IMG/VR virus record: IMGVR_UViG_3300024999_000030 | Coordinates: 124,001-188,000 of that record | From: a virus | Strand: one strand, 5' to 3' | DNA length: 64,000 nt | In this document: positions 32,625 through 43,902 of the stretch, piece after piece | Layout: every line of letters starts with the position of its first letter | How positions within the stretch are numbered: the stretch's first letter is position 1 | Position numbers and translations under genes: made by a program | Notes under the pieces: model-generated | The model's input: only the letters and a program-made list of their open reading frames with translations | Databases searched by the model: none | What the model was told of the DNA's origin: nothing

Positions 32625-32829
32625 AATATTAAATGAAATAATAGAACATCCTGAAATATTAGACAATAACAATTATAGATCAAGGGAATTCTGTGTACAT
32701 TCCTGTGATGGTTGTTGTTTAGTTATAAATTGGGAATTAGGTATAGTCGACTTAACTGAGGCTCAATTTTTATTAAGATGTATTGAAAAAAGAGCTGAGT
32801 TAGAAATTAGTCCTTCGGTTTCTCAATAG
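32617..32829 (+). CDS. Short Cys-cluster protein, paralog family
   Basis: 70 residues. F-C-V-H-S-C-D-G-C-C-L core and terminal helix Q-F-L-L-R-C-I-E-K-R-A-E-L-E; the shortest family member. Overlaps the glycosylase gene by eight bases. Confidence 0.6.
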   Translation: MCKILNEIIEHPEILDNNNYRSREFCVHSCDGCCLVINWELGIVDLTEAQFLLRCIEKRAELEISPSVSQ

Positions 32830-32935
32830 TAAAATTAATTTCAAAAAACTCAACGGGCACCGTTAATTGTATGTTAACGGTGACCGTTCTTTCTTTGTTA
32901 TATATATAATTTGCCCACGTTCGTGAGGTGGTCAT
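32807..32935 (-). CDS. Trp microprotein
   Basis: 42 residues; T-S-R-T-W-A-N-Y-I-Y matches motif B. ATGA overlap with the gene upstream and 23-base antisense overlap with the end of 32617-32829. Its codons span a hairpin (CACCGTTAA / TTAACGGTG, 32858-32882) that may also terminate + transcription. Confidence 0.55.
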   Translation of the reverse strand: MTTSRTWANYIYNKERTVTVNIQLTVPVEFFEINFTIEKPKD

Positions 32936-33195
32936 TCTGAATTATTGCCCTCCCACGTAACGATTTCCCATGGCTCAATTTTATGTTGAAGTTTAATCTT
33001 TTTTAAGATCATTCGAACATCTTCTAGTGAGCGCCAGGTATCGTTTTCGAAATATGACACCCTTTCCCATTTTTCTTCTATTTTCCAGAAAAGAAATTTA
33101 TGAGCCGGAACAAATTTTTGAATTTGATATATGTAATCACCATTGTCATCGTTGTACTGTCGTTGTCTTTGAATTCTATAAATGAAATCTTCCAT
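32932..33195 (-). CDS. Small hypothetical protein
   Basis: 87 residues with AGAGGAATAAA upstream. Aromatic-rich; includes N-D-T-W-R-S-L. Function unknown. Confidence 0.6.
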   Translation of the reverse strand: MEDFIYRIQRQRQYNDDNGDYIYQIQKFVPAHKFLFWKIEEKWERVSYFENDTWRSLEDVRMILKKIKLQHKIEPWEIVTWEGNNSE

Positions 33196-33199
33196 TGTT

Positions 33200-33400
33200 T
33201 TATTCCTCTATAATAATATTGTCGATGTTATTAAGTGGAAAGATAAATTGAGATTTATCTTTATATACAATAAAACATCCGTTCAAGTAAGCATATGGTA
33301 CGGCGCTTTTAACTACGGTAATAACCGTATCTTCGTGATCTGAAAACATATATTGATGAGCCGCTCCGATATTCGTGTGAACAACAATTCTCTTTACCAT
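33200..33400 (-). CDS. Small hypothetical protein
   Basis: 66 residues from the ATG at 33400, with AGGAGAAATAAA upstream and a promoter just before. Beta-rich. Function unknown. Confidence 0.6.
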   Translation of the reverse strand: MVKRIVVHTNIGAAHQYMFSDHEDTVITVVKSAVPYAYLNGCFIVYKDKSQFIFPLNNIDNIIIEE

Positions 33401-33431
33401 TTTATTTCTCCTTTTTATTTCATCCTTAATC

Positions 33432-33460
33432 AATATAATTATAAATCATGAAATAGTCAA
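33432..33460 (-). promoter_or_regulatory. sigma70-type promoter, minus strand (TTGACT-17-TATATT)
   Basis: Spacer 17; reads leftward into 33400. Confidence 0.82.
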
Positions 33461-33465
33461 TGTAT

Positions 33466-33612
33466 TTATTTAGATTCATTAAACGCTTCCATCACACCTT
33501 TCCACCAAGTATTTGGGCTGTTCCATTCCCACCACATATTTTGTCTCATCCAAAAACTCCAAATCTGGCGCACACTGAATGATGTCTTATTGGGCATGTG
33601 AGAGGGTTTCAT
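33466..33612 (-). CDS. Trp microprotein, Trp-richest member
   Basis: 48 residues with eight Trp: Q-I-W-S-F-W, W-W-E-W and N-T-W-W-K-G. Last gene before the internal promoter at 33432. Confidence 0.6.
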   Translation of the reverse strand: MKPSHMPNKTSFSVRQIWSFWMRQNMWWEWNSPNTWWKGVMEAFNESK

Positions 33613-33615
33613 TGT

Positions 33616-33909
33616 TTAAAACCCATCAAATAATGTTTGTAGGGAGATGGGATCTGAAGTTTCAAATGAAGCACATTCTTCTGCGGAATAGCGTGGGCTC
33701 ATCCATCCAATAACTTTAAAAAATTTAGTAGTGATTCCGTCTGTAATAAGAACTTTAATTGTCGCTCCCCTATTTCCAACCGGACGATCACCGATCCCTA
33801 AGTCATAATAACTACCTGCTTTCTCGGCTGCGGATTCAAAACTATCCGCTTCAAAGTCAATATAAAATGAAGAATTATCTGAATTAACAATTATAGCTTT
33901 AATTTTCAA
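33616..33909 (-). CDS. Small hypothetical protein
   Basis: 97 residues with GGAGGAAA upstream. Starts with beta strands (K-I-K-A-I-I-V-N), acidic overall. Not a microprotein family member. Confidence 0.65.
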   Translation of the reverse strand: MKIKAIIVNSDNSSFYIDFEADSFESAAEKAGSYYDLGIGDRPVGNRGATIKVLITDGITTKFFKVIGWMSPRYSAEECASFETSDPISLQTLFDGF

Positions 33910-33917
33910 ATTTCCTC

Positions 33918-34064
33918 CTATCTACTTGGTGTTGGTGATTTTGCTTCCCGTCTCATTTTATAGAGATGCCAATTAATATAGATGGAGGCATCTCTATCTC
34001 TATGGTGAGACAAATCCAATTGATCACTAAGCCACTCAACAACAGAGGTCTTATTTTTACTCAT
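33918..34064 (-). CDS. Trp microprotein
   Basis: 48 residues with both motifs: S-V-V-E-W-L (A) and I-N-W-H-L-Y (B). ATGA overlap with 34061-34258. Confidence 0.65.
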   Translation of the reverse strand: MSKNKTSVVEWLSDQLDLSHHRDRDASIYINWHLYKMRREAKSPTPSR

Positions 34065-34258
34065 TTTTCTTCTGTTTTTATGTCTTTTAATTTTTTAAAT
34101 AAGTCATGTGTTTTAGCCGCAGCTATTTTAAACGAGCAACCTAATTCTTGATTCTTTAATATGGAATTTACAAGAGCTTCTCTAAATTTCTTGTCACGCT
34201 CATATGCAATCCATTTCCACCAAGTTTTATTTATCGTTCGTTTAATAATCGTTGCCAT
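34061..34258 (-). CDS. Trp microprotein with long helix
   Basis: 65 residues: N-K-T-W-W-K-W-I-A-Y-E-R, then a basic helix. ATGA-coupled to the next gene down. Confidence 0.65.
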   Translation of the reverse strand: MATIIKRTINKTWWKWIAYERDKKFREALVNSILKNQELGCSFKIAAAKTHDLFKKLKDIKTEEK

Positions 34259-34433
34259 CTTGTGCCTTCTTCAAGACTTCCATCACTTCATTTGCGTACC
34301 TCTTAGCAGCGTCTAAGTCCTCTTGAGTCCATATTTTTTGCTTTTTACGACAAGCAATGTCACGTTTTCTATCTAACTCTTCGGTGCTTTGTTTATCAAT
34401 TAATTTAGAGTGTAATTCTGTATTTTCGCTCAT
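34242..34433 (-). CDS. Small charged protein
   Basis: 63 residues from the ATG at 34433, which overlaps the upstream stop (ATGA). Lys/Glu/As-rich helix; Q-K-I-W-T-Q-E-D is a weak match to motif B. Confidence 0.5.
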   Translation of the reverse strand: MSENTELHSKLIDKQSTEELDRKRDIACRKKQKIWTQEDLDAAKRYANEVMEVLKKAQDGNDY

Positions 34434-34702
34434 ATTTTCTCCGTAAGTGAACATTTCCATATAGTATTTAAATCATATGGCTCTTCATCGGTTTGAAATT
34501 TAGCACCACACTCACAAACGATAGTGCAATTTATCTCTTTTGATAATTCGTAATAAATATTAGTTGCCGCTTGTTTAATATTACAAATTGGACAATCTAT
34601 ATGATTATGCACTACTTCTTTACAATCACAACAACAAAGCTCACGTGTAATTGTTAATCTTCCGCTCCAAGAGTATTTCCATGTGTCTTGGGTGCTAGTC
34701 AT
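34430..34702 (-). CDS. Zinc-binding protein with T-W start
   Basis: 90 residues. C-C-C-D-C, H-N-H, C-P-I-C and C-E-C-G groups suggest two zinc sites; the N-terminus D-T-W-K-Y-S-W resembles motif B, so this may be a family domain fused to a zinc module. Confidence 0.6.
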   Translation of the reverse strand: MTSTQDTWKYSWSGRLTITRELCCCDCKEVVHNHIDCPICNIKQAATNIYYELSKEINCTIVCECGAKFQTDEEPYDLNTIWKCSLTEKI

Positions 34703-34880
34703 CGCTCTTTTTACATGACCTGGTAATTAAATCATATTTCATATTTATTATATCTGAAATACTAATTGTAATATGAGATGTTATGGTAAATACAGGCATC
34801 TTTACATATTTATTGGAAAACTTATACCATGTATTTTTAATAGTGGGGGGCTTTATTTCTTTAGCAGTAGGCATTTTCAT
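34695..34880 (-). CDS. Trp microprotein
   Basis: 61 residues: T-I-K-N-T-W-Y-K-F-S-N-K-Y (motif B), then a beta-rich end. Overlaps the next gene by eight bases. Confidence 0.6.
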   Translation of the reverse strand: MKMPTAKEIKPPTIKNTWYKFSNKYVKMPVFTITSHITISISDIINMKYDLITRSCKKSDD

Positions 34881-34882
34881 TG

Positions 34883-34975
34883 TTACCAGAGCCCCTTAAG
34901 TCGCATTGCCGCTTCCATAGATTTTTTCAAATCTATATAATACAACCACCTTTTCCATGTTTGTGCAATTCTCAT
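34883..34975 (-). CDS. Trp microprotein
   Basis: 30 residues from the ATG at 34975, chosen because GAAGGATAAG and a complete promoter (34994-35022) lie directly upstream; the longer frame begins before the promoter. I-A-Q-T-W-K-R-W-L-Y-Y. Confidence 0.6.
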   Translation of the reverse strand: MRIAQTWKRWLYYIDLKKSMEAAMRLKGLW

Positions 34976-34993
34976 AAACTTATCCTTCGTAAT

Positions 34994-35022
34994 AATATAA
35001 GATTTATCACTATAATAGTCAA
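34994..35022 (-). promoter_or_regulatory. sigma70-type promoter, minus strand (TTGACT-17-TATATT)
   Basis: Spacer 17; internal to the array, overlapping the end of 35019-35201. Confidence 0.78.
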
Positions 35023-35201
35023 GGTGAGATGAAATAATGCCGAATGGAACGTTCATATTCAAACTGTTTTCGTAATTGCCACGTAGCGCTAATTGTAAGT
35101 ACAATATATTCTGTTTTTAATTTTCCATCAGTGGTTATTTCACAAACAGTATATGGCCAACCAACTCTACTAATCCATTCTGTAAATTCTTTATCGATCA
35201 T
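35019..35201 (-). CDS. Trp microprotein, both motifs
   Basis: 60 residues with AGGAGAAG upstream: E-F-T-E-W-I (A) and S-A-T-W-Q-L-R-K-Q-F (B), separated by a beta-like V-C-E-I-T-T-D-G segment. Confidence 0.65.
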   Translation of the reverse strand: MIDKEFTEWISRVGWPYTVCEITTDGKLKTEYIVLTISATWQLRKQFEYERSIRHYFISP

Positions 35202-35289
35202 AACGTTGAAATTCTTCTCCTGTAAAAGTTTTGACTATTACATATATAAACCAGGTGTCTTTAATATTACGACTTAATATTTTTTTCAT
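35191..35289 (-). CDS. Trp microprotein, short
   Basis: 32 residues: N-I-K-D-T-W-F-I-Y-V. Its coding sequence contains the ribosome binding site of the next gene. Confidence 0.5.
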   Translation of the reverse strand: MKKILSRNIKDTWFIYVIVKTFTGEEFQRYDR

Positions 35290-35312
35290 TATATTATTGT
35301 TTTAATTTAATT

Positions 35313-35456
35313 TTATAAATACATATTACTTATTTTAATACAATATTGTCCAGTTTTCTTTCTAATGTGATCTGCTTTATATTTCCACCAAACACTAGCT
35401 ATGCTTGGATTTTTATCTTTAAATATTTTTGCTATAATTTTCATTATTTGTCTCAT
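35313..35456 (-). CDS. Trp microprotein
   Basis: About 47 residues (ATG at 35456 or 35444), overlapping the end of the membrane protein upstream. S-I-A-S-V-W-W-K-Y. Confidence 0.5.
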   Translation of the reverse strand: MRQIMKIIAKIFKDKNPSIASVWWKYKADHIRKKTGQYCIKISNMYL

Positions 35457-35679
35457 TAGGGTTTTTTCCCAACGCCGCGTCTTTTCGTTGCCATGGCACG
35501 GGCTCGACCATGATTTCGCCATACAATACTATCAGTGGGAATATCATGAAATATACAATATTTATACCAATTACAATCGATGTTATGGCGTGTTCTTTTT
35601 TTATCTTGAAACGATTGATATAAGCTTCCACAAATGCGTAAAAAGAGGCAACTGCTATAGCTAAACATAAGAGGTCCAT
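35419..35679 (-). CDS. Small membrane protein
   Basis: 86 residues, two to three hydrophobic helices then a charged tail. GAGGAATAAA upstream; start adjoins the previous stop. Function unknown. Confidence 0.6.
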   Translation of the reverse strand: MDLLCLAIAVASFYAFVEAYINRFKIKKEHAITSIVIGINIVYFMIFPLIVLYGEIMVEPVPWQRKDAALGKNPNETNNENYSKNI

Positions 35680-35853
35680 TTATTTATTCCTCTTTAGTTT
35701 CCAAAGATGATGAATTGGTGTAGTTGGATCCATGCGAATATCATTATACTGTTTCCAATATCTCCAATTAAATTTAGTATTTATATATAAAGTAACACCC
35801 TTAATAGTACTTGCGGGCATTTGAATTTTAATCCAAGAAGAGAAGGACATCAT
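35680..35853 (-). CDS. Trp microprotein, both motifs
   Basis: 57 residues with AAGGAGATAG upstream: F-S-S-W-I (A), F-N-W-R-Y-W-K-Q-Y (B), and a further H-H-L-W-K-L. Confidence 0.65.
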   Translation of the reverse strand: MMSFSSWIKIQMPASTIKGVTLYINTKFNWRYWKQYNDIRMDPTTPIHHLWKLKRNK

Positions 35854-35869
35854 GACACTATCTCCTTAG

Positions 35870-36019
35870 TCAACTTTCGATAATAAAGCCAAAGGCACCA
35901 CGTCCTTTTGGCGTATCTGAATGAATATATATGAGAAGGTGATCCTTTGGCCATCCGCCAAGATGTCTATCTCCCCCAGCTACTTCAAGCGCAGAAATCC
36001 ATTGGGAAAAAGATATCAT
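35870..36019 (-). CDS. Trp microprotein, motif A type
   Basis: 49 residues: S-F-S-Q-W-I at the N-terminus, G-G-W-P in the middle, and a Gly-rich end; a clear motif B is missing. Confidence 0.55.
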   Translation of the reverse strand: MISFSQWISALEVAGGDRHLGGWPKDHLLIYIHSDTPKGRGAFGFIIES

Positions 36020-36167
36020 TCTTCTCTCTTTTTTTAAAATCTTTTTCTATTTGCCATAAAATCCAATTATCATAAATATTAATAATTAGATCTGTGTCTA
36101 AATTTACTGATTCTATTTGTCGACGAATCCAGTCAGAATATTTTTGTCTTAATTTTACATCAACCAC
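35985..36167 (-). CDS. Trp microprotein, both motifs
   Basis: 60 residues: Y-S-D-W-I-R (A) and Y-D-N-W-I-L-W-Q-I (B). Overlaps 35870-36019 by 35 bases. Confidence 0.62.
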   Translation of the reverse strand: MVDVKLRQKYSDWIRRQIESVNLDTDLIINIYDNWILWQIEKDFKKREKNDIFFPMDFCA

Positions 36168-36183
36168 GATGGCCCACTCTCCC

Positions 36184-36312
36184 TTAGGATTTTTTACTTA
36201 TCCACCGCCAAAGCCAAGTGTTAAAGATACAAATATTTAAATTTTGGTGTGGCCAATTTAACTTTTGATTAATTAATTTAACATATTTAAGATCTAATTC
36301 TTTTTCGTTCAT
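36184..36312 (-). CDS. Trp microprotein
   Basis: 42 residues from the ATG at 36312; I-F-N-T-W-L-W-R-W-I close to the C-terminus. Confidence 0.6.
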   Translation of the reverse strand: MNEKELDLKYVKLINQKLNWPHQNLNICIFNTWLWRWISKKS

Positions 36313-36463
36313 TTGTCGTCTTTATGGCTTCGTTTATGGCTTCGTGGCTTGTATAATAATTTCGAAGTCTCCAGGTTGACTCTGGTGTGTCGTCATGCGC
36401 ATAATCAAAACGTCCACCAGAATCAACCGACATTATCCATTTTTTCCATTCCTTAAATGTCAT
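36287..36463 (-). CDS. Trp microprotein, both motifs
   Basis: 58 residues from the ATG at 36463: M-T-F-K-E-W-K-K-W (A), then D-T-P-E-S-T-W-R-L-R-N-Y-Y (B). GGTGGAAG upstream; ATGA overlap with 36460. Confidence 0.68.
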   Translation of the reverse strand: MTFKEWKKWIMSVDSGGRFDYAHDDTPESTWRLRNYYTSHEAINEAIKTTNERKRIRS

Positions 36464-36921
36464 CTTTTTACTTCCACCCATTTATCACTTGGACTGGGGT
36501 GTTCGGTTAACTCTCTCTTAATCCACGACTCAGCCGCCCACAATCCCCCAAAATATATAGTCTTGTCTTCGGCTCCAGTTACATCTACCCAATCGTAGCT
36601 GGCGTATGGCGATGGAGTGAGATTTAATCGTGGGGTCCATTTCCATTCTTGAATCTTATATCTTTCTCCATTTGTAACAATCCTGAATCTAGTACCAATT
36701 GGCCTAACATATGGATGTTCTGGAATTTCTGGAATATTTATTTCTGATGGAATTGATTGATTAGCTTGAAATCTTCCTTGAGTAATATTGGAATTAGAGT
36801 GCCCCTTAATGGTATATGTGGTCTTACCCAAGTCAGTTTTTCCAAAACAATAAATAATCGTTATAACTAAACCTATAAAAAACATAATCATTGCAATATT
36901 AGTAGCTTGAGCTTTATTCAT
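36460..36921 (-). CDS. Single-pass membrane protein
   Basis: 153 residues from the ATG at 36921: short N-terminus, one transmembrane helix (about 8-28), then an outer beta-rich, Pro-rich domain ending S-D-K-W-V-E-V. Not a family member; function unknown. Confidence 0.65.
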   Translation of the reverse strand: MNKAQATNIAMIMFFIGLVITIIYCFGKTDLGKTTYTIKGHSNSNITQGRFQANQSIPSEINIPEIPEHPYVRPIGTRFRIVTNGERYKIQEWKWTPRLNLTPSPYASYDWVDVTGAEDKTIYFGGLWAAESWIKRELTEHPSPSDKWVEVKR

Positions 36922-36922
36922 A

Positions 36923-37111
36923 TTATTTATCTTTCTTTTGTGTGGAACAAATAACGGTTGCCCCATATATGGTGGCTATGTGTCCAGATTGAATCATTTC
37001 TCTTTTTATTGCAGCAATTTTATTACGAGTTTCCCACTGTTTCCATGTGTTGAAAATATTAGGTTTCGTCTTTTTATATTTAAGGGAGTGCCAATCTTTC
37101 CAGTCTTTCAT
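36923..37111 (-). CDS. Trp microprotein
   Basis: 62 residues: D-W-K-D-W-H-S-L (A-like), N-I-F-N-T-W-K-Q-W-E-T (B), then G-H-I-A-T-I-Y. ATGA overlap with 37108. Confidence 0.65.
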   Translation of the reverse strand: MKDWKDWHSLKYKKTKPNIFNTWKQWETRNKIAAIKREMIQSGHIATIYGATVICSTQKKDK

Positions 37112-37284
37112 GCTACCACTCTATATATTTTAAATTCTTGATTAATGTCCATCACACTACATATAATTGTTCCAATATTATATTTTCCATTTGCGTTACT
37201 CAGCGCCCGCTTTCGGGTGGCCACATGATAAATCATCCAAGCATAAAGAATTGAATTATAACGAATGTTAATAAACTTATTCAT
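37108..37284 (-). CDS. Trp microprotein
   Basis: 58 residues: S-I-L-Y-A-W-M-I-Y-H and a beta-rich tail ending Y-R-V-V-A. ATGA-coupled on both sides. Confidence 0.6.
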   Translation of the reverse strand: MNKFINIRYNSILYAWMIYHVATRKRALSNANGKYNIGTIICSVMDINQEFKIYRVVA

Positions 37285-37415
37285 ATTACCACCCTATAAA
37301 TTATGCATTTATTATTATTGCGAATTGTTAACATTGAACCTGGAAATAAATCATATTTATTTGAACAGCTAAGCCAAGTGTGTATAACAGAACCGAATGA
37401 TATAAATTTTGTCAT
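37281..37415 (-). CDS. Trp microprotein
   Basis: 44 residues: S-V-I-H-T-W-L-S and the same I-I-Y-R-V-V ending as 37108-37284, so the two are close paralogs. Confidence 0.6.
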   Translation of the reverse strand: MTKFISFGSVIHTWLSCSNKYDLFPGSMLTIRNNNKCIIYRVVI

Positions 37416-37680: not shown

Positions 37681-37863
37681 CTATTTTAATGGAAATTTTC
37701 CATTAAAATAAAACCTAATAAACCAATAATGTTTCCAGGTACTCTTAATTGTTGGGGCCCACGTTTTACAATTAGTATCTAAAATTTTAATATCCGAATT
37801 ATAATTGATATCTAAAATTTTAATATCCGAATTAAACGCCGTACCTAAATCAATAATCGTCAA
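37681..37863 (-). CDS. Trp microprotein with tandem repeat
   Basis: 60 residues from a TTG that overlaps the dCMP deaminase stop (TTGA). A perfect ten-residue repeat N-S-D-I-K-I-L-D occurs twice, then S-T-W-K-H-Y-W. The repeat is visible in DNA as a roughly 30-base tandem duplication. Confidence 0.5.
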   Translation of the reverse strand: MTIIDLGTAFNSDIKILDINYNSDIKILDTNCKTWAPTIKSTWKHYWFIRFYFNGKFPLK

Positions 37864-38369
37864 AATTCTTTTCCATCACAATAACGATGAATGTTAATCA
37901 ATTCTATATCAACTGAGCGGACAAGAACATCGGCTTCTTCAAGCATAATTACAGATCGTTCATGCGAGGCTTTCCAATTTTCCCATTTACCGAGTTCTTT
38001 CATGTGTTTTTCCCAGCCTGAATCAATAATAATCTCTTTGATACCAACCTGAATAATAGCCCTGGCACAATCAGCGCAGGGAAAAGCACTAATATAGATT
38101 CGGCATCCTTTTAAAGATACACCCTCACGAGCCGCAGAATAAATGGCATTGCGTTCGGCGTGTTCCATCCAAAAGTATTTTTCTCCATTTTCACGAGATT
38201 GTCTTTCAGAAACATCATCTTTAATACCACGAGGAAATGAATTATATCCGGTGGCCTTTACTATATTATCTCTATTTACAACTATTGCACCGATATGGGT
38301 GTTTTGATCTTTACTTCTCGTGGAAAGTAAGTGTACAAAATTTAGAAAGTAATTATCCCAGTCATTCAT
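37860..38369 (-). CDS. Deoxycytidylate (dCMP) deaminase
   Basis: 169 residues. Zinc site H70-A-E72 with C98-x2-C101 (PCADC); the N-terminal R-S-K-D and G-A-I-V segments fit the ComEB/dCMP deaminase family. It turns dCMP into dUMP for ThyX. First gene after the 38389 promoter and the only metabolic enzyme inside the microprotein array. Confidence 0.92.
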   Translation of the reverse strand: MNDWDNYFLNFVHLLSTRSKDQNTHIGAIVVNRDNIVKATGYNSFPRGIKDDVSERQSRENGEKYFWMEHAERNAIYSAAREGVSLKGCRIYISAFPCADCARAIIQVGIKEIIIDSGWEKHMKELGKWENWKASHERSVIMLEEADVLVRSVDIELINIHRYCDGKEF

Positions 38370-38388: not shown

Positions 38389-38417
38389 AATATAATCCCT
38401 GGCTATCAGAATGTCAA
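38389..38417 (-). promoter_or_regulatory. sigma70-type promoter, minus strand (TTGACA-17-TATATT)
   Basis: Perfect -35, spacer 17; reads into the dCMP deaminase gene. Confidence 0.85.
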
Positions 38418-38485: not shown

Positions 38486-38659
38486 CTACTCCTTTGAGTG
38501 TCGAACCCAACTACCCTTCAATAACTCATTGTACATATATTCAGTTTTTTGGCCCTCGAAATATAATTTAAACCTAATCCATTTAAGCCAATTATTTCGA
38601 ATTGACGCCTGTTGTTTATTATATTTAGTATATTTGGCCCAAGCCGAAAATTCTGACAT
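38486..38659 (-). CDS. Trp microprotein, both motifs
   Basis: 57 residues with GACGAGGAATA upstream: E-F-S-A-W-A (A), N-N-W-L-K-W-I-R-F (B), and K-G-S-W-V. Confidence 0.65.
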   Translation of the reverse strand: MSEFSAWAKYTKYNKQQASIRNNWLKWIRFKLYFEGQKTEYMYNELLKGSWVRHSKE

Positions 38660-38660
38660 A

Positions 38661-38777
38661 TTATTCCTCGTCCCTTAATCTTAAGCTTAATCGCCATCTT
38701 ATAATCATTATTTTAAAAACATATCCCTTCCACATTTGAATTATTGAATTAGATTTTATTTCATTAATATCTATCAT
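38661..38777 (-). CDS. Trp microprotein
   Basis: 38 residues: S-I-I-Q-M-W-K-G-Y-V and a basic Arg-rich end. Confidence 0.55.
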   Translation of the reverse strand: MIDINEIKSNSIIQMWKGYVFKIMIIRWRLSLRLRDEE

Positions 38778-38780: not shown

Positions 38781-38915
38781 TTAAAATTCATTCCTTATAA
38801 ACCTATCAAAGTATTGCCATAATCTCCAATTTTGAGAAATGGTAATTTTACCCAAGATCTCCTTCGCAGCCTGGGGCTGCCAGCTATTAGCCCATTTACC
38901 AAAAGACTTGATCAT
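38781..38915 (-). CDS. Trp microprotein, both motifs
   Basis: 44 residues: S-F-G-K-W-A (A), then S-Q-N-W-R-L-W-Q-Y-F-D-R-F-I-R (B). Close paralog of 38927-39049. Confidence 0.65.
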   Translation of the reverse strand: MIKSFGKWANSWQPQAAKEILGKITISQNWRLWQYFDRFIRNEF

Positions 38916-38926: not shown

Positions 38927-39049
38927 CTATCTTATAAATCTATTGAAATATCTCCACATTCTCCAATTTTGAATAATAGTGATATTATTTTTTGGTGTTT
39001 TGCTTTTAGTCAACCAATGACCAGCGGACCAAATACTGAAAGACGTCAT
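38927..39049 (-). CDS. Trp microprotein, both motifs
   Basis: 40 residues: S-F-S-I-W-S (A) and I-Q-N-W-R-M-W-R-Y-F-N-R-F-I-R (B), nearly the same ending as its neighbour: a recent duplication. Confidence 0.66.
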   Translation of the reverse strand: MTSFSIWSAGHWLTKSKTPKNNITIIQNWRMWRYFNRFIR

Positions 39050-39255
39050 CTTGTCCATTCGTCTCCATACATGTTATAGTTTTTCCATAAATACCAAATC
39101 TTCCATGTTGGCATATTACCGTTACATAAAAAAGCAACCCAATCGTTGTAAGAAAAGGTAAGAAGCCATTTATCATTATATAATAAAAGTGGTTGAGGAA
39201 ACATGTACCCTCCATGAATATTCTCAATCCATATTTTAAAACTTGGCTCTTTCAT
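39046..39255 (-). CDS. Trp microprotein, both motifs
   Basis: 69 residues: S-F-K-I-W-I (A), Y-N-D-W-V-A-F, and P-T-W-K-I-W-Y-L-W (B). ATGA overlaps at both ends. Confidence 0.66.
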   Translation of the reverse strand: MKEPSFKIWIENIHGGYMFPQPLLLYNDKWLLTFSYNDWVAFLCNGNMPTWKIWYLWKNYNMYGDEWTR

Positions 39256-39383
39256 CTATTCCTTCCTAAGTAAGCCCGCTCGCCTATATTATACCATTCC
39301 CACTCTTCCCAAGTCCGAGATATGTTTAATATTTCAGTAATACCAGCAATTTGCAACCATTCCTGAAAGGTTCTATTAATCAA
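39252..39383 (-). CDS. Trp microprotein, both motifs
   Basis: 43 residues from a TTG with AAGGAATT upstream: T-F-Q-E-W-L (A), S-R-T-W-E-E-W-E-W-Y (B). Paralog of 39400-39540. Confidence 0.65.
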   Translation of the reverse strand: MINRTFQEWLQIAGITEILNISRTWEEWEWYNIGERAYLGRNR

Positions 39384-39399: not shown

Positions 39400-39540
39400 T
39401 TAATGGTCTCTAGTATAATTAAGGCCGCTGTACCATTTCCACTCTTCCCAAGTCCGAAATGTATTTAACGCTTCAATAGTGTTAATAACCTGTAACCATT
39501 CCTGAAAGGTTATCTTTTCTTGAAAGGTTGTTTTAGTCAA
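39400..39540 (-). CDS. Trp microprotein, both motifs
   Basis: 46 residues from a TTG with AAGGAAG upstream; motif A start partly duplicated (T-F-Q-E-K-I-T-F-Q-E-W-L), then F-R-T-W-E-E-W-K-W-Y. First gene after the 39559 promoter. Confidence 0.66.
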   Translation of the reverse strand: MTKTTFQEKITFQEWLQVINTIEALNTFRTWEEWKWYSGLNYTRDH

Positions 39541-39558: not shown

Positions 39559-39587
39559 AATATAACTTATAAATAATAATTTGTCAA
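39559..39587 (-). promoter_or_regulatory. sigma70-type promoter, minus strand (TTGACA-17-TATATT)
   Basis: Spacer 17; reads into 39540. Confidence 0.82.
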
Positions 39588-39640
39588 TTCCCTAAAGTAG
39601 AGCGCCAAAGATAAAAAATCCAAACATAACGAATACTCAT
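39584..39640 (-). CDS. Very short Trp microprotein
   Basis: 18 residues: S-I-R-Y-V-W-I-F-Y-L-W. ATGA overlap with 39637. Could be a remnant. Confidence 0.4.
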   Translation of the reverse strand: MSIRYVWIFYLWRSTLGN

Positions 39641-39732
39641 TTTCGTATTAAACTTATATCAAAAAAACTAATACCATGAATAATTCTATAGCGATCATAA
39701 TAAAACTTCGTCCAAGTTTTATGAATGCTCAT
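39637..39732 (-). CDS. Short Trp microprotein
   Basis: 31 residues: S-I-H-K-T-W-T-K-F-Y-Y. Overlaps the membrane gene upstream by 14 bases. Confidence 0.5.
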   Translation of the reverse strand: MSIHKTWTKFYYDRYRIIHGISFFDISLIRK

Positions 39733-39928
39733 TCTTTTTTGATCTCCGTGATGCAATCACCATTGCAATTGGCCAAAATGAAAAATTAAGACAATATACT
39801 AAAAATAACGCAGGAAGAGAACTATTGTTAGGGTATTCTTCTCGCTGTCTTTTTACTGCATAACCACCCCAAAACACACCCGTTACTATATAACTCCATG
39901 TTAAATAATGTAGTAATGTCCAAATCAT
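39719..39928 (-). CDS. Small membrane protein
   Basis: 69 residues from the ATG at 39928 (AAAGGAGAA upstream). Two hydrophobic helices and a basic Ser/Lys tail. Function unknown. Confidence 0.6.
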   Translation of the reverse strand: MIWTLLHYLTWSYIVTGVFWGGYAVKRQREEYPNNSSLPALFLVYCLNFSFWPIAMVIASRRSKKNEHS

Positions 39929-39942
39929 TTTAAATTCTCCTT

Positions 39943-40188
39943 TTAAATTATTATTTTTCCACTTGTATTGTTTCTTCGCCTTGTATTGTTTCTTCGCCAA
40001 GGCGGATTATATGTCGTATTTATATAAATATGTTGACTTGCCCTCCATCTTAAATTTGATATATAATTTTGCCAAGTTTGAAAAATGTAACGTTTAGGCT
40101 TATCAGTACGATAAGTCCTATAAAATATAATTATTATAGCTAAAATAATAAAACCTTCCGTTATTGCCCAAAATGCAAGTGGGTTCAT
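39943..40188 (-). CDS. Membrane-anchored Trp microprotein
   Basis: 81 residues: N-terminal transmembrane helix (about 6-24), then Y-I-F-Q-T-W-Q-N-Y-I (B) and an Arg/Asn-rich tail encoded by a tandem 18-base repeat. Confidence 0.6.
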   Translation of the reverse strand: MNPLAFWAITEGFIILAIIIIFYRTYRTDKPKRYIFQTWQNYISNLRWRASQHIYINTTYNPPWRRNNTRRRNNTSGKIII

Positions 40189-40256
40189 TTAAACTCCAAA
40201 AGATAGGCATTTTGATTTCTTCTTTTAAAGAATGAGTAATATAACATTGATTCCAT
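40185..40256 (-). CDS. Tiny ORF preceding the anchored microprotein
   Basis: 23 residues with AAAGGAGAAA upstream and an ATGA overlap with 40188. Aromatic start M-L-Y-Y-S-F-F. Possibly a leader. Confidence 0.4.
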   Translation of the reverse strand: MESMLYYSFFKRRNQNAYLLEFK

Positions 40257-40304
40257 TAATTTTCTCCTTTAACCTGGTATTTCTTCTTTTAGCATAAAAA
40301 GGGT

Positions 40305-40601
40305 TTAGGGAATAATATTTATCAATATACCAGATGCGTCTTGTTGGTTCTGTGCAACATATACTTTATAATCTTCGTAATGTATAAGATCAGCTTGAAT
40401 AAGCCAATTCAATGTAAATAATATTTCTTCTCGTAGGCGCTGATGAAGCTCATGATCATTTTTGAAACATCTATACTTCTTTGATAAAAAATTAATAAGA
40501 TCTTGTTCCACGTCTCCATCTTCGTCTGGAGAACTGAAATAAAATAAGGAAGGATCTTGAAGCATCCATGCCCCTTTAGTGCTAAATATTTCTGGTTTCA
40601 T
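40305..40601 (-). CDS. Small acidic protein
   Basis: 98 residues from the ATG at 40601 (GAGGATGAC upstream, ATGA overlap). Helical, acidic, not in the Trp family. Function unknown. Confidence 0.6.
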   Translation of the reverse strand: MKPEIFSTKGAWMLQDPSLFYFSSPDEDGDVEQDLINFLSKKYRCFKNDHELHQRLREEILFTLNWLIQADLIHYEDYKVYVAQNQQDASGILINIIP

Positions 40602-40771
40602 TTTGTCATCCTCATTACCCTTTTCCCACCTACCCAATGTATTATTTGACCATAGCGTATAAACCATGACCAATGAGACCAAATAGTGGCAATAGTGAAG
40701 GGCTGTAGATAGGGGCAGCTCAATCTCATCCATTCTGAAAAAGTAACTTTTTGTAACTCTGAACGTTTCAT
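40598..40771 (-). CDS. Trp microprotein, both motifs
   Basis: 57 residues: V-T-F-S-E-W-M (A), A-T-I-W-S-H-W-S-W-F-I (B), I-H-W-V-G. ATGA-coupled on both sides. Confidence 0.66.
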   Translation of the reverse strand: MKRSELQKVTFSEWMRLSCPYLQPFTIATIWSHWSWFIRYGQIIHWVGGKRVMRMTK

Positions 40772-40911
40772 CTATTATATTTTTCCGTTTCTCTTTTTGT
40801 GTGTATAAATTCTAAATAAGCTTGCCAATTTTTATAAACGGTTGGAGTAAGATATAAGTCTTTATTCTTTAGAAACATTATAAGATCTGCAAAAATAAAA
40901 TCATTTGCCAT
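40768..40911 (-). CDS. Trp microprotein
   Basis: 47 residues: V-Y-K-N-W-Q-A-Y-L-E-F (B) after a helical start. The frame stays open upstream without a start codon (F-I-G-P-G-Y-G-I-V-W), so the ancestral gene may have been longer. Confidence 0.58.
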   Translation of the reverse strand: MANDFIFADLIMFLKNKDLYLTPTVYKNWQAYLEFIHTKRETEKYNR

Positions 40912-40993
40912 GAGTCCAAGTCTCCGTCTCCAGGAAATCACTTCCCATACAATACCATATCCAGGTCCAATAAATGCTAGATCCCCTACGCAT
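40901..40993 (-). CDS. Short Trp microprotein
   Basis: 30 residues: S-I-Y-W-T-W-I-W-Y and a final E-T-W-T-H. Overlaps in a different frame the open upstream extension of 40768-40911, so one of the two readings may be spurious. Confidence 0.38.
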   Translation of the reverse strand: MRRGSSIYWTWIWYCMGSDFLETETWTHGK

Positions 40994-41117
40994 GACTCTT
41001 CACATAGTGCTTCGCGTTATATGATACCCAAACCCACTTAATCGTTCCCCGTTTAATTAAGATGAGGGCCCTTTTAAAGGAAGTCTCAATAATCTGATTA
41101 GTCTGATTTAAATTCAT
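40986..41117 (-). CDS. Trp microprotein
   Basis: 43 residues from the ATG at 41117: basic helix then T-I-K-W-V-W-V-S-Y. Overlaps both neighbours. Confidence 0.5.
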   Translation of the reverse strand: MNLNQTNQIIETSFKRALILIKRGTIKWVWVSYNAKHYVKSHA

Positions 41118-41295
41118 ACTTCCATGGTTGAACATAATCTGAAAGTTTATCAGGGGACATATACCACATACTTTGTTGATATACTTTCCAATAAAACCAA
41201 GTTTGAGACGGATTATCCCCAAGAACAATTCCTGGTTGATATCTACATTGTTTAGCCAACCACTCATTAAAGGTTAATTTTTCAAAAAAACCCAT
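41098..41295 (-). CDS. Trp microprotein, both motifs
   Basis: 65 residues: L-T-F-N-E-W-L (A), D-N-P-S-Q-T-W-F-Y-W-K-V-Y (B), V-Q-P-W-K-Y. Confidence 0.68.
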   Translation of the reverse strand: MGFFEKLTFNEWLAKQCRYQPGIVLGDNPSQTWFYWKVYQQSMWYMSPDKLSDYVQPWKYEFKSD

Positions 41296-41297
41296 AT

Positions 41298-41459
41298 TTA
41301 GCTCCGTGAAAATTTATATGTCTGATATACCTTCCAAATCATCCAAGTTCCTCCTGGAGTGTCGAACTTCCCCCAGGTTCCTCTCCATCGCCATCTCTTA
41401 ACCCATTCATTAAAGGTTAACTTAGTAGAAGGATTCAAGTTCCACCTCTCTATTAACAT
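41298..41459 (-). CDS. Trp microprotein, both motifs
   Basis: 53 residues: L-T-F-N-E-W-V (A), D-T-P-G-G-T-W-M-I-W-K-V-Y (B). Confidence 0.68.
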   Translation of the reverse strand: MLIERWNLNPSTKLTFNEWVKRWRWRGTWGKFDTPGGTWMIWKVYQTYKFSRS

Positions 41460-41565
41460 GAGTATTAAAATATACCCAGAGCGCCCAAGTTTGATCTGGG
41501 GTGTCCGTTATCACATAGTTCTTTGTTTCAGAAATACAAGCCTCCAGCCATTCACCAAACGTCAT
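41422..41565 (-). CDS. Trp microprotein, canonical
   Basis: 47 residues: M-T-F-G-E-W-L (A), D-T-P-D-Q-T-W-A-L-W-V-Y-F (B). Overlaps the next gene by 38 bases and is ATGA-coupled upstream. Confidence 0.7.
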   Translation of the reverse strand: MTFGEWLEACISETKNYVITDTPDQTWALWVYFNTHVNREVELESFY

Positions 41566-41681
41566 TTAAGATTACTCTTGAAAATATAATGAAAATATAT
41601 CCAGAGTGACCAAGTTTGATGTGGGGTGTCTATGTAATTCGTTCTTGAGACATAATTTTCTAACCATTGATTAAATGTCAT
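41562..41681 (-). CDS. Trp microprotein, canonical
   Basis: 39 residues: M-T-F-N-Q-W-L (A), D-T-P-H-Q-T-W-S-L-W-I-Y-F (B). Close paralog of 41422-41565. Confidence 0.7.
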   Translation of the reverse strand: MTFNQWLENYVSRTNYIDTPHQTWSLWIYFHYIFKSNLK

Positions 41682-41684
41682 ATT

Positions 41685-41834
41685 CTATTTCCGCCCCACA
41701 TTAAATCCCTCATATAGGGTCCAAAGCTTCCAGGTTCCACATATGGTTTTTCTAGCTAAATCAAAATTTATATTATTCCATTCACCATACCATTTATTTT
41801 CGCCAACTACTGTAATCCATTGATTAAATGTCAT
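41685..41834 (-). CDS. Trp microprotein, canonical
   Basis: 49 residues: M-T-F-N-Q-W-I (A), W-Y-G-E-W, C-G-T-W-K-L-W-T-L-Y (B). Confidence 0.7.
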   Translation of the reverse strand: MTFNQWITVVGENKWYGEWNNINFDLARKTICGTWKLWTLYEGFNVGRK

Positions 41835-41838
41835 AAGC

Positions 41839-41976
41839 TCACTTTTTAACGAGTTTATTAAGAATGATATAATTATACCAGGTCCAAGAAACAGGGATGC
41901 TGGATTTAATTACAACATACTTATCATATAAAGACTCACAATAAAGAAATAAGAAAAATAAGAGTAAAATTATCAT
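41839..41976 (-). CDS. Trp microprotein with signal/membrane helix
   Basis: 45 residues: hydrophobic N-terminal helix (2-12) followed by P-V-S-W-T-W-Y-N-Y (B). Suggests that some family members act in or across the membrane. Confidence 0.58.
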   Translation of the reverse strand: MIILLLFFLFLYCESLYDKYVVIKSSIPVSWTWYNYIILNKLVKK

Positions 41977-41981
41977 CAGTC

Positions 41982-42290
41982 TTAAAGTACCTTTACTGCT
42001 TCTATAAGTTTCTGTTTAATTTGTAGAAATTCCTCTTCATTGCTTTGATATTTAGAATTCATATAGCAAAGTAAATCAGAGGGGGAACCTAAATTATACT
42101 CGATGTTCCATTCCCAATCTTTACTGTCTGCCTTTAAGGTCAATTGAATTGCCGTATGCTGATGTTCCTCAATTTTACCATAAATTACTGAATCATCATC
42201 TAACATTAGATTATGCTTATAATAATAAGGAAGCTCAATATCTATTTCCTTTTGAATTGTGGTTTTCTCAGGTACTATAAATCTAGCCAT
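41982..42290 (-). CDS. Small acidic protein
   Basis: 102 residues from the ATG at 42290 (AAAGGAGAG upstream). Beta-rich then helical; contains D-W-E-W-N but no clear family motif. Confidence 0.62.
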   Translation of the reverse strand: MARFIVPEKTTIQKEIDIELPYYYKHNLMLDDDSVIYGKIEEHQHTAIQLTLKADSKDWEWNIEYNLGSPSDLLCYMNSKYQSNEEEFLQIKQKLIEAVKVL

Positions 42291-42303
42291 TTTTATCTCT
42301 CCT

Positions 42304-42459
42304 TTATCTTTCTGATCTATATTCTTCTGGCTCATCACTATCGTTTTTCTCTATAGATATATAATAGCCAGCCCGACAAAATATCTTATGAATGCAATTT
42401 TCACATGCCTGTTTATTATTGATAAGTTTAGTACAAATAGCATAAGTAATGTCTTTCAT
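42304..42459 (-). CDS. Tiny Cys-cluster protein
   Basis: 51 residues with C-x9-C-x2-C-x5-C, a probable single zinc site, and an acidic tail. It resembles a minimal version of the Cys-cluster family core. First gene after promoter 42467. Confidence 0.55.
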   Translation of the reverse strand: MKDITYAICTKLINNKQACENCIHKIFCRAGYYISIEKNDSDEPEEYRSER

Positions 42460-42466
42460 AGGTAAT

Positions 42467-42495
42467 AATATAAGATATAATCAATCAAAAATCAA
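42467..42495 (-). promoter_or_regulatory. sigma70-type promoter, minus strand (TTGATT-17-TATATT)
   Basis: Spacer 17; reads into 42459. Confidence 0.78.
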
Positions 42496-42503
42496 GGCAT
42501 AAT

Positions 42504-42650
42504 CTAAAATCTTGTCCTATGCCCGACTGACACAAGATATAATTGATATATGTTCCAATTCCATGTGATATTGATTTTCTCGGGTCTAATAACTAATTCG
42601 AGCCAATCATGAAAAGATATATCATAAAAGGATATTGTAGAGTTATTCAT
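42504..42650 (-). CDS. Trp microprotein, both motifs
   Basis: 48 residues: S-F-H-D-W-L (A), I-T-W-N-W-N-I-Y-Q-L-Y (B). Confidence 0.65.
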   Translation of the reverse strand: MNNSTISFYDISFHDWLELVIRPEKINITWNWNIYQLYLVSVGHRTRF

Positions 42651-42662
42651 TCTTTTGCCTCT

Positions 42663-42746
42663 TTAATAGAAGTTGACAAGATACCATTTAAATATATGCC
42701 AAGTTCTAAAAATACTGACTCCATTTTTATGTGTAGTATTCTTCAT
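42663..42746 (-). CDS. Short Trp microprotein
   Basis: 27 residues: S-I-F-R-T-W-H-I-F-K-W-Y. Confidence 0.5.
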   Translation of the reverse strand: MKNTTHKNGVSIFRTWHIFKWYLVNFY

Positions 42747-42760
42747 ATTAATCAACTATA

Positions 42761-42853
42761 TCATACCACATATGCATCCCAAGTCCATTTAATATTAAGA
42801 CTATCCCGTTTATTATGTTTCATAATTATATCACACCATTCTTTTATATGTTC
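42761..42853 (-). pseudogene. Trp microprotein lacking a start codon
   Basis: A 30-codon open frame with H-I-K-E-W-C (A) and I-K-W-T-W-D-A-Y (B) but no ATG/GTG/TTG before motif A; the frame is closed by a TGA just upstream. An internal ATG at 42823 would give 20 residues. Degenerate, or reached by frameshift from 42844-42972. Confidence 0.5.
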
Positions 42854-42972
42854 TCATGTTTTCTAATTGATATTTTATACCATTGAAACATATTCCAATT
42901 CCATTCAATATTTCTATTAGAGGGTGCTGTTAAAATTACTTTAAGCCATTCATTGAAAGAAGGGATTTTCAT
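42844..42972 (-). CDS. Trp microprotein, both motifs
   Basis: 42 residues: S-F-N-E-W-L (A), I-E-W-N-W-N-M-F-Q-W-Y (B). ATGA overlap with 42969. Confidence 0.66.
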   Translation of the reverse strand: MKIPSFNEWLKVILTAPSNRNIEWNWNMFQWYKISIRKHENI

Positions 42973-43094
42973 ATCAAGTTTTCTCCAATTATATAAGACT
43001 TATAGGTTCTATATAACGACCAAGTCCATTTTATAGGAATAATACCCCTATAAGAATCAACTCCGTTTACATTAAGCCATGTCTTATATGTCAT
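42969..43094 (-). CDS. Trp microprotein, both motifs
   Basis: 41 residues: M-T-Y-K-T-W-L (A), I-K-W-T-W-S-L-Y-R-T-Y (B). Confidence 0.65.
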   Translation of the reverse strand: MTYKTWLNVNGVDSYRGIIPIKWTWSLYRTYKSYIIGENLI

Positions 43095-43281
43095 CTTCTG
43101 AAATATAGACACCAGTACCTCCACAAACGGCACAATCCTCATTTAAGTAATCTTTACCAGTACCAGTGCAATTATCGCATTCTTTGGTAGTCCAGGTTCG
43201 CGTATCTGCACTAGTTTTCCAGTAATAATAAAAGCCCCATGTATCAGCTATTGCAGTGGCTATGATAAGAGTACCAATCCT
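43084..43281 (-). pseudogene. DnaJ-type zinc module fused to T-W motifs, no start codon
   Basis: A 65-codon open frame with A-D-T-W-G-F-Y, D-T-R-T-W-T, then two C-x2-C-x-G-T-G zinc modules (C-D-N-C and C-A-V-C) like those of DnaJ. It lacks a start codon and lies in the -1 frame relative to the end of the 43260-43418 gene, so it may be reached by slippage at AAA or be a remnant. Confidence 0.5.
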
Positions 43282-43418
43282 TTATGTCTATATTGTCGCC
43301 ATACATTTATAATATAGTAATTTTGTTTATCCATATAATATGATGAATAAGGTATGCCAATCATAAGTAATAATACACACAATAAAAGGAAATATTCTAA
43401 ACCATTCATCCAGCCCAT
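43260..43418 (-). CDS. Membrane-anchored Trp microprotein
   Basis: 52 residues from the ATG at 43418 (GGAGCGGCA upstream): hydrophobic helix (about 9-22), then Y-I-I-N-V-W-R-Q-Y-R. Confidence 0.55.
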   Translation of the reverse strand: MGWMNGLEYFLLLCVLLLMIGIPYSSYYMDKQNYYIINVWRQYRHKGLVLLS

Positions 43419-43437
43419 TGCCGCTCCATTAAATCCA

Positions 43438-43575
43438 TTAAAAATGAATCCATGTATATAGGCTCCACATTCTACGAATAGAGATAACTTGATATTTAGG
43501 AAGCCTATCAGTACCAAAATTCAATTGATACCACTTAGTTCTCTTATACTGTTCTAAATTTATCTTAGCCTTCAT
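43438..43575 (-). CDS. Trp microprotein
   Basis: 45 residues: K-W-Y-Q-L-N-F (A-like), S-I-R-R-M-W-S-L-Y-T-W (B). Confidence 0.6.
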   Translation of the reverse strand: MKAKINLEQYKRTKWYQLNFGTDRLPKYQVISIRRMWSLYTWIHF

Positions 43576-43583
43576 ATTACCTC

Positions 43584-43691
43584 TCATAGATAAAGCCATA
43601 CATAAAAAGCCCATACCTTACGAATGGATGTTTTTTCTGTAGGTTTATTATCACATAGCCATAGATTCAATAATTGTTTAAAGGTAACCAT
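43584..43691 (-). CDS. Trp microprotein
   Basis: 35 residues: T-F-K-Q-L-L-N-L-W-L (A-like), S-I-R-K-V-W-A-F-Y-V-W (B). AAGGAGATA upstream. Confidence 0.6.
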   Translation of the reverse strand: MVTFKQLLNLWLCDNKPTEKTSIRKVWAFYVWLYL

Positions 43692-43702
43692 GATATATCT
43701 CC

Positions 43703-43756
43703 TTATCCAAAAATTCTAAGCCATATGTATATACGCCATCTTCTATGAATAGACAT
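43703..43756 (-). CDS. Very short Trp microprotein
   Basis: 17 residues: S-I-H-R-R-W-R-I-Y-I-W-L. Motif B alone, with AGGAAAT upstream. Confidence 0.4.
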   Translation of the reverse strand: MSIHRRWRIYIWLRIFG

Positions 43757-43760
43757 AAAT

Positions 43761-43902
43761 TTATTTCCTAAAATAGGACACTCCATCTGTATGAAATCTT
43801 TGCCACATATACCATCCATATGTATCCCATGTCCAAGAGATAGAAATAGCTTTATTGCAAAGGGCGAATACACATACTAAGGAATTCTTTAAAAGTTAGC
43901 AT
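43761..43902 (-). pseudogene. Frameshifted Trp microprotein
   Basis: ATG at 43902 begins L-T-F-K-E-F-L (A), but this frame stops after 16 codons. The +1 frame continues without interruption through I-S-I-S-W-T-W-D-T-Y-G-W-Y (B) to a stop at 43761. A single-base indel or a programmed shift near 43865 would join them. Confidence 0.55.

Follow-up and report, generated by a model that had tools for sequence, protein, structure and literature searches.

About 50 open reading frames (ORFs) of 17–97 amino acids (aa), sharing one common core, stand in tandem on the minus strand between 32.8 and 43.9 kb of a stretch of virus DNA. This stretch, the window, is 64,000 nucleotides long and covers positions 124001-188000 of the 332,730-base virus record IMGVR_UViG_3300024999_000030, a jumbo-phage contig of ~332.7 kb; positions below are those of the window unless the contig is named, and members are called by their first coordinate. 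Aligned at its tryptophan (Trp), the core reads [STN]-[I/P/V]-x-x-[TN]-W-x-x-[WYF]-x-x-[YF], and it is predicted to be a helix capped N-terminally by S/T/N, with I/P-W-W/Y-Y as its hydrophobic face. A first-pass annotation of the sequence had described a tandem array of about 45 Trp-motif microproteins of 17–65 residues, and our catalogue agrees with this, as it holds 52 minus-strand anchors (50 of them inside 32807-43902) and two plus-strand members. The size range needs widening, as some members exceed 65 aa. The relatives that it had placed at 26.6, 28.0, 28.9 and 29.4 kb were all recovered. Its two-part signature stood only in part: the core is enriched and extends four residues further upstream than described, but the N-terminal motif 1, [TS][FY]x[EQ]W[LIV], is present in a minority of members only.

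On the minus strand of 32807-43902 there are 23 occurrences of the strict motif [TN]W..[WYF]..[YFW], and the plus strand there has none. Other stretches of the genome (20–26 kb) have 0–2 per strand, and 200 dinucleotide shuffles of the array averaged 0.35 occurrences and reached 3 at most. The pattern [TS][FY]..W[LIV] likewise has 14 occurrences on the minus strand of the array and none on the plus strand; shuffles averaged 0.4. A profile built from 15 members and searched against the whole genome gave 17 matches, all at 35.7-43.9 kb, with a best expect value (E) of 3e-16. The 52 minus-strand ORFs were picked by eye on the W..[WYF] pattern and aligned at the first Trp. They have S/T/N at -5 in 42, I/P/V/T at -4 in 49, T/N at -1 in 39 and Y/W/F at +3 in 45, and +6/+7 is mostly Y/F. 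An unbiased test is given by the flank, which played no part in choosing sites: among all W..[WYF] sites, [STN][IVPT] stands at -5/-4 in 40 of 77 in the array versus 34 of 678 in the control (Fisher p=5e-25). Motif 1 looks like a second capped helix. AlphaFold, run on member 41422 with 14 paralogues, predicted exactly two helices (residues 2–12 and 22–45) forming a hairpin, with a mean predicted local distance difference test score (pLDDT) of 79 and a predicted template modelling score of 0.55. Members 43703, 39584 and 42761 are hardly more than helix 2.

Selection on the protein, which had been proposed from the variable codons, is borne out by the scorable pairs. The ratio of nonsynonymous to synonymous substitution rates (dN/dS) was 0.18–0.48 in close pairs with computable dS, and synonymous sites were saturated in one pair; the pairs were aligned as proteins, and the values therefore lean low. 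Both serine codon blocks are used at -5, TCN (9) and AGY (7), the codons of the +3 aromatic residue exchange among TGG, TAT and TTT, and the DNA around the core is not conserved. The members have ribosome binding sites of their own, as previously suggested: a Shine-Dalgarno sequence of at least 4 nt was found in 24 of the 52 members (46%) versus 5% of control ORFs, and one of at least 3 nt in 44 of the 52 versus 31%. The ATGA coupling was also recovered, with 4-nt overlaps of this type at at least nine junctions (42972/42969, 41565/41562, 40771/40768, 39640/39637, 39255/39252, 37863/37860, 37284/37281, 37111/37108 and 34064/34061). Codon-usage gene calling was uninformative for the members because their Trp/Tyr-rich composition is atypical. 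Taken together, the codons and translation signals argue that the array is a genuine family of coding genes, expanded in tandem and constrained at the protein level.

The possibility that the array is an artefact, that is, a DNA-level repeat or chance ORFs, was considered in the light of these data. Short ORFs are plentiful in AT-rich DNA, but the strand- and frame-specific enrichment, the codon evidence, the Shine-Dalgarno sites and the conservation of the unselected flank make this extremely improbable. A DNA-level repeat or recoded gene was ruled out, since the ATGA overlaps put neighbours in different frames and the codons differ. Rickettsia palindromic elements are an example of selfish in-frame DNA elements, being palindromic and conserved at the DNA level. 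A selfish in-frame element was rejected for the array, as only diverged pairwise direct DNA repeats (61–91%) were found, the conservation is at the amino-acid level and the codons differ; inverted repeats were not searched separately.

The strongest functional clue, which the first-pass annotation did not include, is that some members carry parts of the phage's own major capsid protein (MCP). In 27952 on the plus strand, the core TTIKEVWNNWKF is followed directly by AIGQAMLNPIRRQIDYEGLSRRIFKVEPLP, a copy of MCP residues 63–93 with 60% identity over 30 aa (E ~1e-9). Compared with the MCP gene, the synonymous sites of this copy are saturated (proportion of synonymous differences, pS, 0.92) but the nonsynonymous proportion (pN) is 0.28, and therefore the copied segment appears to be kept under protein-level constraint. 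When 9534 short ORFs, from nearly the whole genome, were searched with an MCP profile built on 81 related capsid proteins, members took the first three ranks: 27952 (E 7e-9), 36923 (E 0.03) and 34695 (E 0.5). Their segments match three different MCP stretches, all strongly conserved in the MCP, and each begins just past the Trp helix. The chance probability that ranks 2 and 3 are both members is ~1e-4, because members make up ~1% of the residues searched, or ~2e-3 if the 4% top-hit rate of other queries applies. From these comparisons the capsid segment of 27952 is regarded as certain and those of 36923 and 34695 as probable. Tunturi_5, a giant phage unrelated to this one, has the segment of 34695 too: its gp172 contains it as a copy from Tunturi_5's own capsid protein, and the match of 34695 to gp172 exceeds all shuffles. 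This 97-aa protein (XOB77615.1; L190 4431-4724), whose C-terminus copies 27 residues of the major head protein, is apparently an independent capsid-segment microprotein. The AlphaFold model of the MCP (pLDDT 52) was too poor to place the segments.

The search for relatives gave few results. A helix 2 profile also recovered the plus-strand members 26647 and 27952 beside the array, and a second small cluster of three members at contig 265.2-267.8 kb, which is 100% identical in a same-species contig. Within this genome the family is confined to these two loci. No same-species contig spanning the array was found, as the existing ones cover other parts of the genome. One credible further member (NIYDCWKNWIEY, in a 50-aa ORF) lies on a congener contig with a 93% identical MCP; up to 39 related contigs were covered, including 316-kb and 340-kb ones, phage G and Tunturi_5, and many were fragments. 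The core was without a match when the 52 members were scanned with Pfam and PHROGs, when consensus sequences and ten proteins were compared with NCBIfam, in a profile search of PDB sequences (best E 0.22) and in a Foldseek search of BFVD and PDB folds with the hairpin (best E 3.5–4). Family matches fell on appended parts only, namely phrog_2522 (major head protein) for 27952 and DnaJ_CXXCXGXG. Near or distant relatives at the DNA level were absent from phage records, none of 80 loci sought through the array's dCMP deaminase had an array, and degenerate-peptide scans of viral contigs and genomes gave no true relative. An Actinomycetota match (L192) proved to be a chance DTPDGTWTLW inside a larger unrelated protein, and matches in G026 and G024 were dismissed (antisense of a large gene; a 30-aa ORF). 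Judged from these searches, the core family is new to every collection searched, in line with the earlier statement that no such family had been described. Of the two kinds of support that the first-pass annotation had looked for, homologs beyond the species are nearly lacking, with one probable member in the congener, but codon-level purifying selection is present.

Table 1. Members of the Trp-motif family and promoters in the window
Positions	Strand	Feature	Remark
26647..26832	+	Member, two core copies (SVYRTWRRHGF, SVFSTWQSY)	
27908..27936	+	Promoter TTGACT-N17-TATATT	Immediately ahead of member 27952
27952..28134	+	Member, core fused to copy of own MCP residues ~63-93	
28852..29052	-	Divergent member (KTWKKEY)	Weak
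29396..29506	-	Member (NIKWRWLHY)	Immediately behind promoter 29560-29532
29560-29532	-	Promoter	Immediately ahead of member 29396
32807..32935	-	Member (TTSRTWANYIY)	
33432..33460	-	Promoter TTGACT-N17-TATATT	
33466..33612	-	Member (SVRQIWSFW)	Start uncertain
33918..34064	-	Member, motif 1-like VVEWL, core SIYINWHLY	
34061..34258	-	Member (TINKTWWKWIAY)	
34430..34702	-	Member, Cys-rich zinc-like tail (STQDTWKYSW)	Weak core
34695..34880	-	Member, core TIKNTWYKF, then probable MCP segment (VKMPVFTITSHITISISDIINMKYDLITRS)	
34883..34975	-	Member (RIAQTWKRWLYY)	Immediately behind promoter 35022-34994
34994..35022	-	Promoter TTGACT-N17-TATATT	Immediately ahead of member 34883
35019..35201	-	Member, motif 1 EFTEWI, core TISATWQLRKQF	
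35191..35289	-	Member (NIKDTWFIY)	
35313..35456	-	Member (SIASVWWKY)	
35680..35853	-	Member, motif 1 SFSSWI, core NTKFNWRYWKQY	
35850..35954	-	Core (YAKRTWCLWLYY; motif 2 RTWCLWLYY)	Motif 1 SFSQWI in other, overlapping frame at 35870-36019
35985..36167	-	Member (YSDWI, NIYDNWILW)	GTG start
36184..36312	-	Divergent member (CIFNTWLWRW)	Weak
36287..36463	-	Member, motif 1 TFKEW, core TPESTWRLRNYY	
36923..37111	-	Member, core NIFNTWKQW, then probable MCP segment (KREMIQSGHIATIYGATVICS)	
37108..37284	-	Member (SILYAWMIY)	
37281..37415	-	Divergent member (SVIHTWLSC)	Weak
37681..37863	-	Member (TIKSTWKHYWF)	33-nt tandem duplication inside gene
38389..38417	-	Promoter TTGACA-N17-TATATT	Ahead of dCMP deaminase 37860-38369
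38486..38659	-	Member, EFSAWA, core SIRNNWLKWIRF	
38661..38777	-	Member (SIIQMWKGY)	
38781..38915	-	Canonical member SFGKW...TISQNWRLWQYF	
38927..39058	-	Canonical member SFSIW...TIIQNWRMWRYF	
39046..39255	-	Canonical member SYNDW...PTWKIWYLWKNY	
39252..39383	-	Canonical member TFQEWL...NISRTWEEWEWY	TTG start
39400..39540	-	Canonical member TFQEWL...NTFRTWEEWKWY	TTG start; behind promoter 39587-39559
39559..39587	-	Promoter TTGACA-N17-TATATT	Immediately ahead of member 39400
39584..39640	-	18-aa member, core alone (MSIRYVWIFYLW)	
39637..39732	-	31-aa member (MSIHKTWTKFYY)	
39943..40188	-	Member (YIFQTWQNY)	Transmembrane-like segment at N-terminus
40598..40771	-	Member TFSEWM...TIATIWSHWSWF	
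40768..40911	-	Member (TVYKNWQAY)	
40901..40993	-	Member (SIYWTWIWY)	Overlaps neighbours in another frame
40986..41222	-	Member (TIKWVWVSY)	TTG start or ATG at 41117
41098..41295	-	Canonical member TFNEWL...NPSQTWFYWKVY	
41298..41438	-	Canonical member TFNEWV...TPGGTWMIWKVY	TTG start
41422..41565	-	Canonical member TFGEWL...TPDQTWALWVYF	
41562..41681	-	Canonical member TFNQWL...TPHQTWSLWIYF	
41685..41834	-	Canonical member TFNQWI...TICGTWKLWTLY	
41839..41976	-	Member (PVSWTWYNY)	Hydrophobic N-terminus
42467..42495	-	Promoter TTGATT-N17-TATATT	
42504..42650	-	Canonical member SFHDWL...NITWNWNIYQLY	
42663..42746	-	27-aa member (SIFRTWHIFKWY)	
42761..42823	-	20-aa member (NIKWTWDAY)	
42844..42972	-	Canonical member SFNEWL...NIEWNWNMFQWY	
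42969..43112	-	Canonical member TYKTWL...PIKWTWSLYRTY	GTG start
43084..43281	-	Core (AIADTWGFY) and CxxCxGTG zinc module	No ATG/GTG/TTG start
43260..43418	-	Member (YIINVWRQY)	Transmembrane-like segment
43438..43575	-	Member (SIRRMWSLYTW)	
43584..43691	-	Member, TFKQLLNLWL, core SIRKVWAFYVW	
43703..43756	-	17-aa member, core alone (MSIHRRWRIYIW)	
43761..43895	-	Core (SISWTWDTYGWY)	No ATG/GTG/TTG start
44390..44418	-	Promoter TTGACA-N17-TATATT	Upstream of array

The several phage promoters that had been assigned to the array are real, but their consensus, TTGAC[TA]-N17-TATATT, recurs genome-wide and is not special to it. The phage-wide form, TTGAC[TA]TTT...TTATATT with a Shine-Dalgarno sequence and start codon straight after, is seen for example at 648, 19533, 27908, 29600, 38417 and 44418. 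A minority of the motif-bearing ORFs of the array look irregular or damaged, as the table indicates for 43084 and 43761. A non-standard start codon could give 43761 a beginning SISWTW, as in the short MSI.. members. The locus 35870/35850, with its motifs in different frames, may be a frameshifted pseudogene, an assembly error or a programmed frameshift. The dCMP deaminase gene (37860-38369, minus strand) is a non-member within the array.

The source, a jumbo phage, belongs to a lineage that has been poorly sampled. Its MCP, encoded at contig 6241-7221, shares 54% identity with the Bacillus phage G protein and as much as 93% with those of several IMG/VR contigs. Immediately downstream of the major capsid gene, GIY-YIG-like and HNH-like ORFs were read from the translations (L091 2420-3647). 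The neighbourhood of the array encodes a DnaE-like DNA polymerase, a T4-like topoisomerase II, DnaB helicase, GroEL, DnaJ, Hsp20 and a tape-measure-like protein, and the phage's own GroEL, DnaJ and Hsp20 lie at 5768-32600 together with an IMP-dehydrogenase-like enzyme, thymidylate synthase and an Ogg-HhH-like protein. The large subunit of topoisomerase II (10399-13440, plus strand) has 1014 aa versus a 661-position profile, with a ~370-residue insertion that resembles an intein or inserted element. About 22 Cys-rich paralogues (~70–160 aa, core CxxC(P)...C) form a second lineage-specific family, with a cluster adjoining the Trp array and two further clusters; their sites are 28124-31000 (plus strand), 43904-44374 (minus strand), ~50.9-54.0 kb (plus strand) and contig 196.5-198.9 kb.

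Our preferred reading, which we hold tentatively, is that the array is a diversified repertoire of infection-time interaction factors with a common docking helix and variable heads. The N-capped aromatic helix would be the docking module, binding one shared partner or pairing members with each other, and in fuller members a second N-capped helix ahead of the core would form a helical hairpin with it. The variable linkers and tails may be heads with different targets, such as capsid-protein segments, zinc knuckles, transmembrane segments and basic tails. Such a repertoire could serve host takeover, counter-defence or control of the capsid protein, most likely by acting against host, defence or competing capsids, and would be renewed by tandem duplication. 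We infer the common partner, modularity as a function, the timing and the targets. The docking model fits the finding that one core carries very different appended parts, namely MCP segments, the CxxCxGTG module of 43084 and the transmembrane-like segments of 43260 and 39943. The capsid pieces suggest decoys or assembly control, and the host-interaction or anti-defence role that the first-pass annotation had offered for the expanding set is plausible. Several observations weigh against the docking repertoire. The MCP matches of 36923 and 34695 are individually weak, and a comparison of 276 large phage ORFs with the short ORFs gave nothing clear as copies of other proteins, with members only slightly over-represented; therefore most heads are unexplained. 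The array promoters are the same as those ahead of other genes and so do not establish early timing. Some members of 17–20 aa are hard to see as head plus handle, and the start-less and frameshifted ORFs raise the possibility that the array is in partial decay. On the contigs examined, no more than one member occurs in the relatives whose capsid proteins are closest, and the lineage may therefore be able to do without the array's function.

The capsid segments could also mean that the members are capsid-assembly or virion factors, whose helix binds capsid or scaffold. They would then be minor virion peptides or assembly regulators, with the MCP fragments as strand or N-arm donors or as dominant-negative caps versus co-infecting relatives or satellites. 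The constrained segment of 27952, the two other probable and conserved MCP stretches in 34695 and 36923, and the independent occurrence of the 34695 segment in gp172 agree with this explanation, but MCP-like parts are found in only 3 of ~57 members, the array (contig 157-168 kb) is not beside the structural genes (MCP at contig 6.2-7.2 kb), and the MCP model does not help in placing the segments; we consider it possible, though on the unlikely side. It is rather improbable that the array is a modular arsenal whose aromatic helix serves every member as a handle and whose tails mimic other molecules, pieces of the phage's own capsid protein among them. Such decoys would blind or occupy host sensors (or EF-Tu-like partners) that detect phage proteins, or block capsid assembly of competitors, and new ones would arise via tandem duplication.

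A duplication-driven family with little function, in which a short helix-coding unit spreads by tandem duplication, is tolerated and leaves many decaying copies, would account for members as short as 17 aa, for the start-less ORFs 43084 and 43761, for the frameshifted member 35870/35850, for the tandem duplication inside 37681 and for the near absence of the family from relatives. We consider it unlikely, as the core residues are kept across members despite near-saturated synonymous sites, dN/dS is below 0.5, Shine-Dalgarno enrichment is strong and the DNA around the core is not conserved. The members could otherwise be membrane-acting peptides, cationic Trp/Tyr-rich amphipathic helices that act in the host inner membrane in superinfection exclusion or membrane disturbance. 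The mean net charge of +3.3, the Trp content of 6.8% of residues, very short members such as MSIHRRWRIYIWLRIFG and the two members with transmembrane-like segments point in this direction. This is very unlikely, since the charge spans -6 to +11, in mean hydrophobic moment the core scarcely exceeds shuffles (0.295 versus 0.278), the conserved N-cap and fixed W/W/Y spacing resemble a specific protein interface, and capsid and zinc heads are a misfit. Returning to the docking repertoire, the members, if translated, would be a ready library for finding uses of very small phage proteins, and the shared helix predicts one common partner. The capsid-segment fusion with its parallel in an unrelated giant phage makes the idea of a capsid-mimic decoy or assembly inhibitor directly testable.

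An arrangement of this kind, in which paralogous microproteins stand in tandem by the dozen and combine a single helix motif with chimeric tails, matches no system known to us, and we are aware of no description of a phage in which dozens of tandem microprotein paralogues are built on one short motif. The helix A consensus of HAT (half-a-TPR) repeats is nWikyArFE, and the core resembles it in the W-x-x-Y-x-x-aromatic helix pattern. HAT differs as a eukaryotic tandem repeat within large proteins, and the Pfam scans of the members gave no match. As a general idea, the small-ORF host-takeover cluster is already known from the host takeover module of Bacillus phage SPO1, which has 26 genes (PMC6873191). 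The array is like that module in being a dense cluster of small-protein genes, mostly without recognisable domains and proposed to act on host processes, and many small ORFs clustered with several promoters are found here too. The SPO1 module is further defined by early expression and by products that inhibit host processes. It differs in that its promoter type serves the whole phage genome, and the SPO1 module proteins are, to our knowledge, not one paralogous family with a shared motif.

Capsid proteins are known to trigger bacterial immunity, as in capsid sensing by CapRel-SJ46 (PMC9712102). The Gol region of T4, 29 residues long, lies in the first quarter of the major head protein gp23, is the part of gp23 that is most conserved, and activates Lit via EF-Tu (PMC3014915). 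Member 27952 is similar in that what it copies is a short, conserved stretch from the early part of a capsid protein. Its best local match in gp23 is IGPAVMGMVRRAI (residues 91–103; score 30, not significant), which we take to overlap Gol. A comparison of the two capsid profiles produced no alignment and found no homology of the MCP segment to Gol, and we treat the resemblance as a lead, not as homology. Gol is part of a full-length capsid protein, whereas 27952 is a separate gene. The likeness to gp172 of the Tunturiibacter phage Tunturi_5 is that of a small protein with a C-terminal copy of a segment of its own head protein, the same one as in 34695, but gp172 has another N-terminus and is without the Trp helix and without an array.

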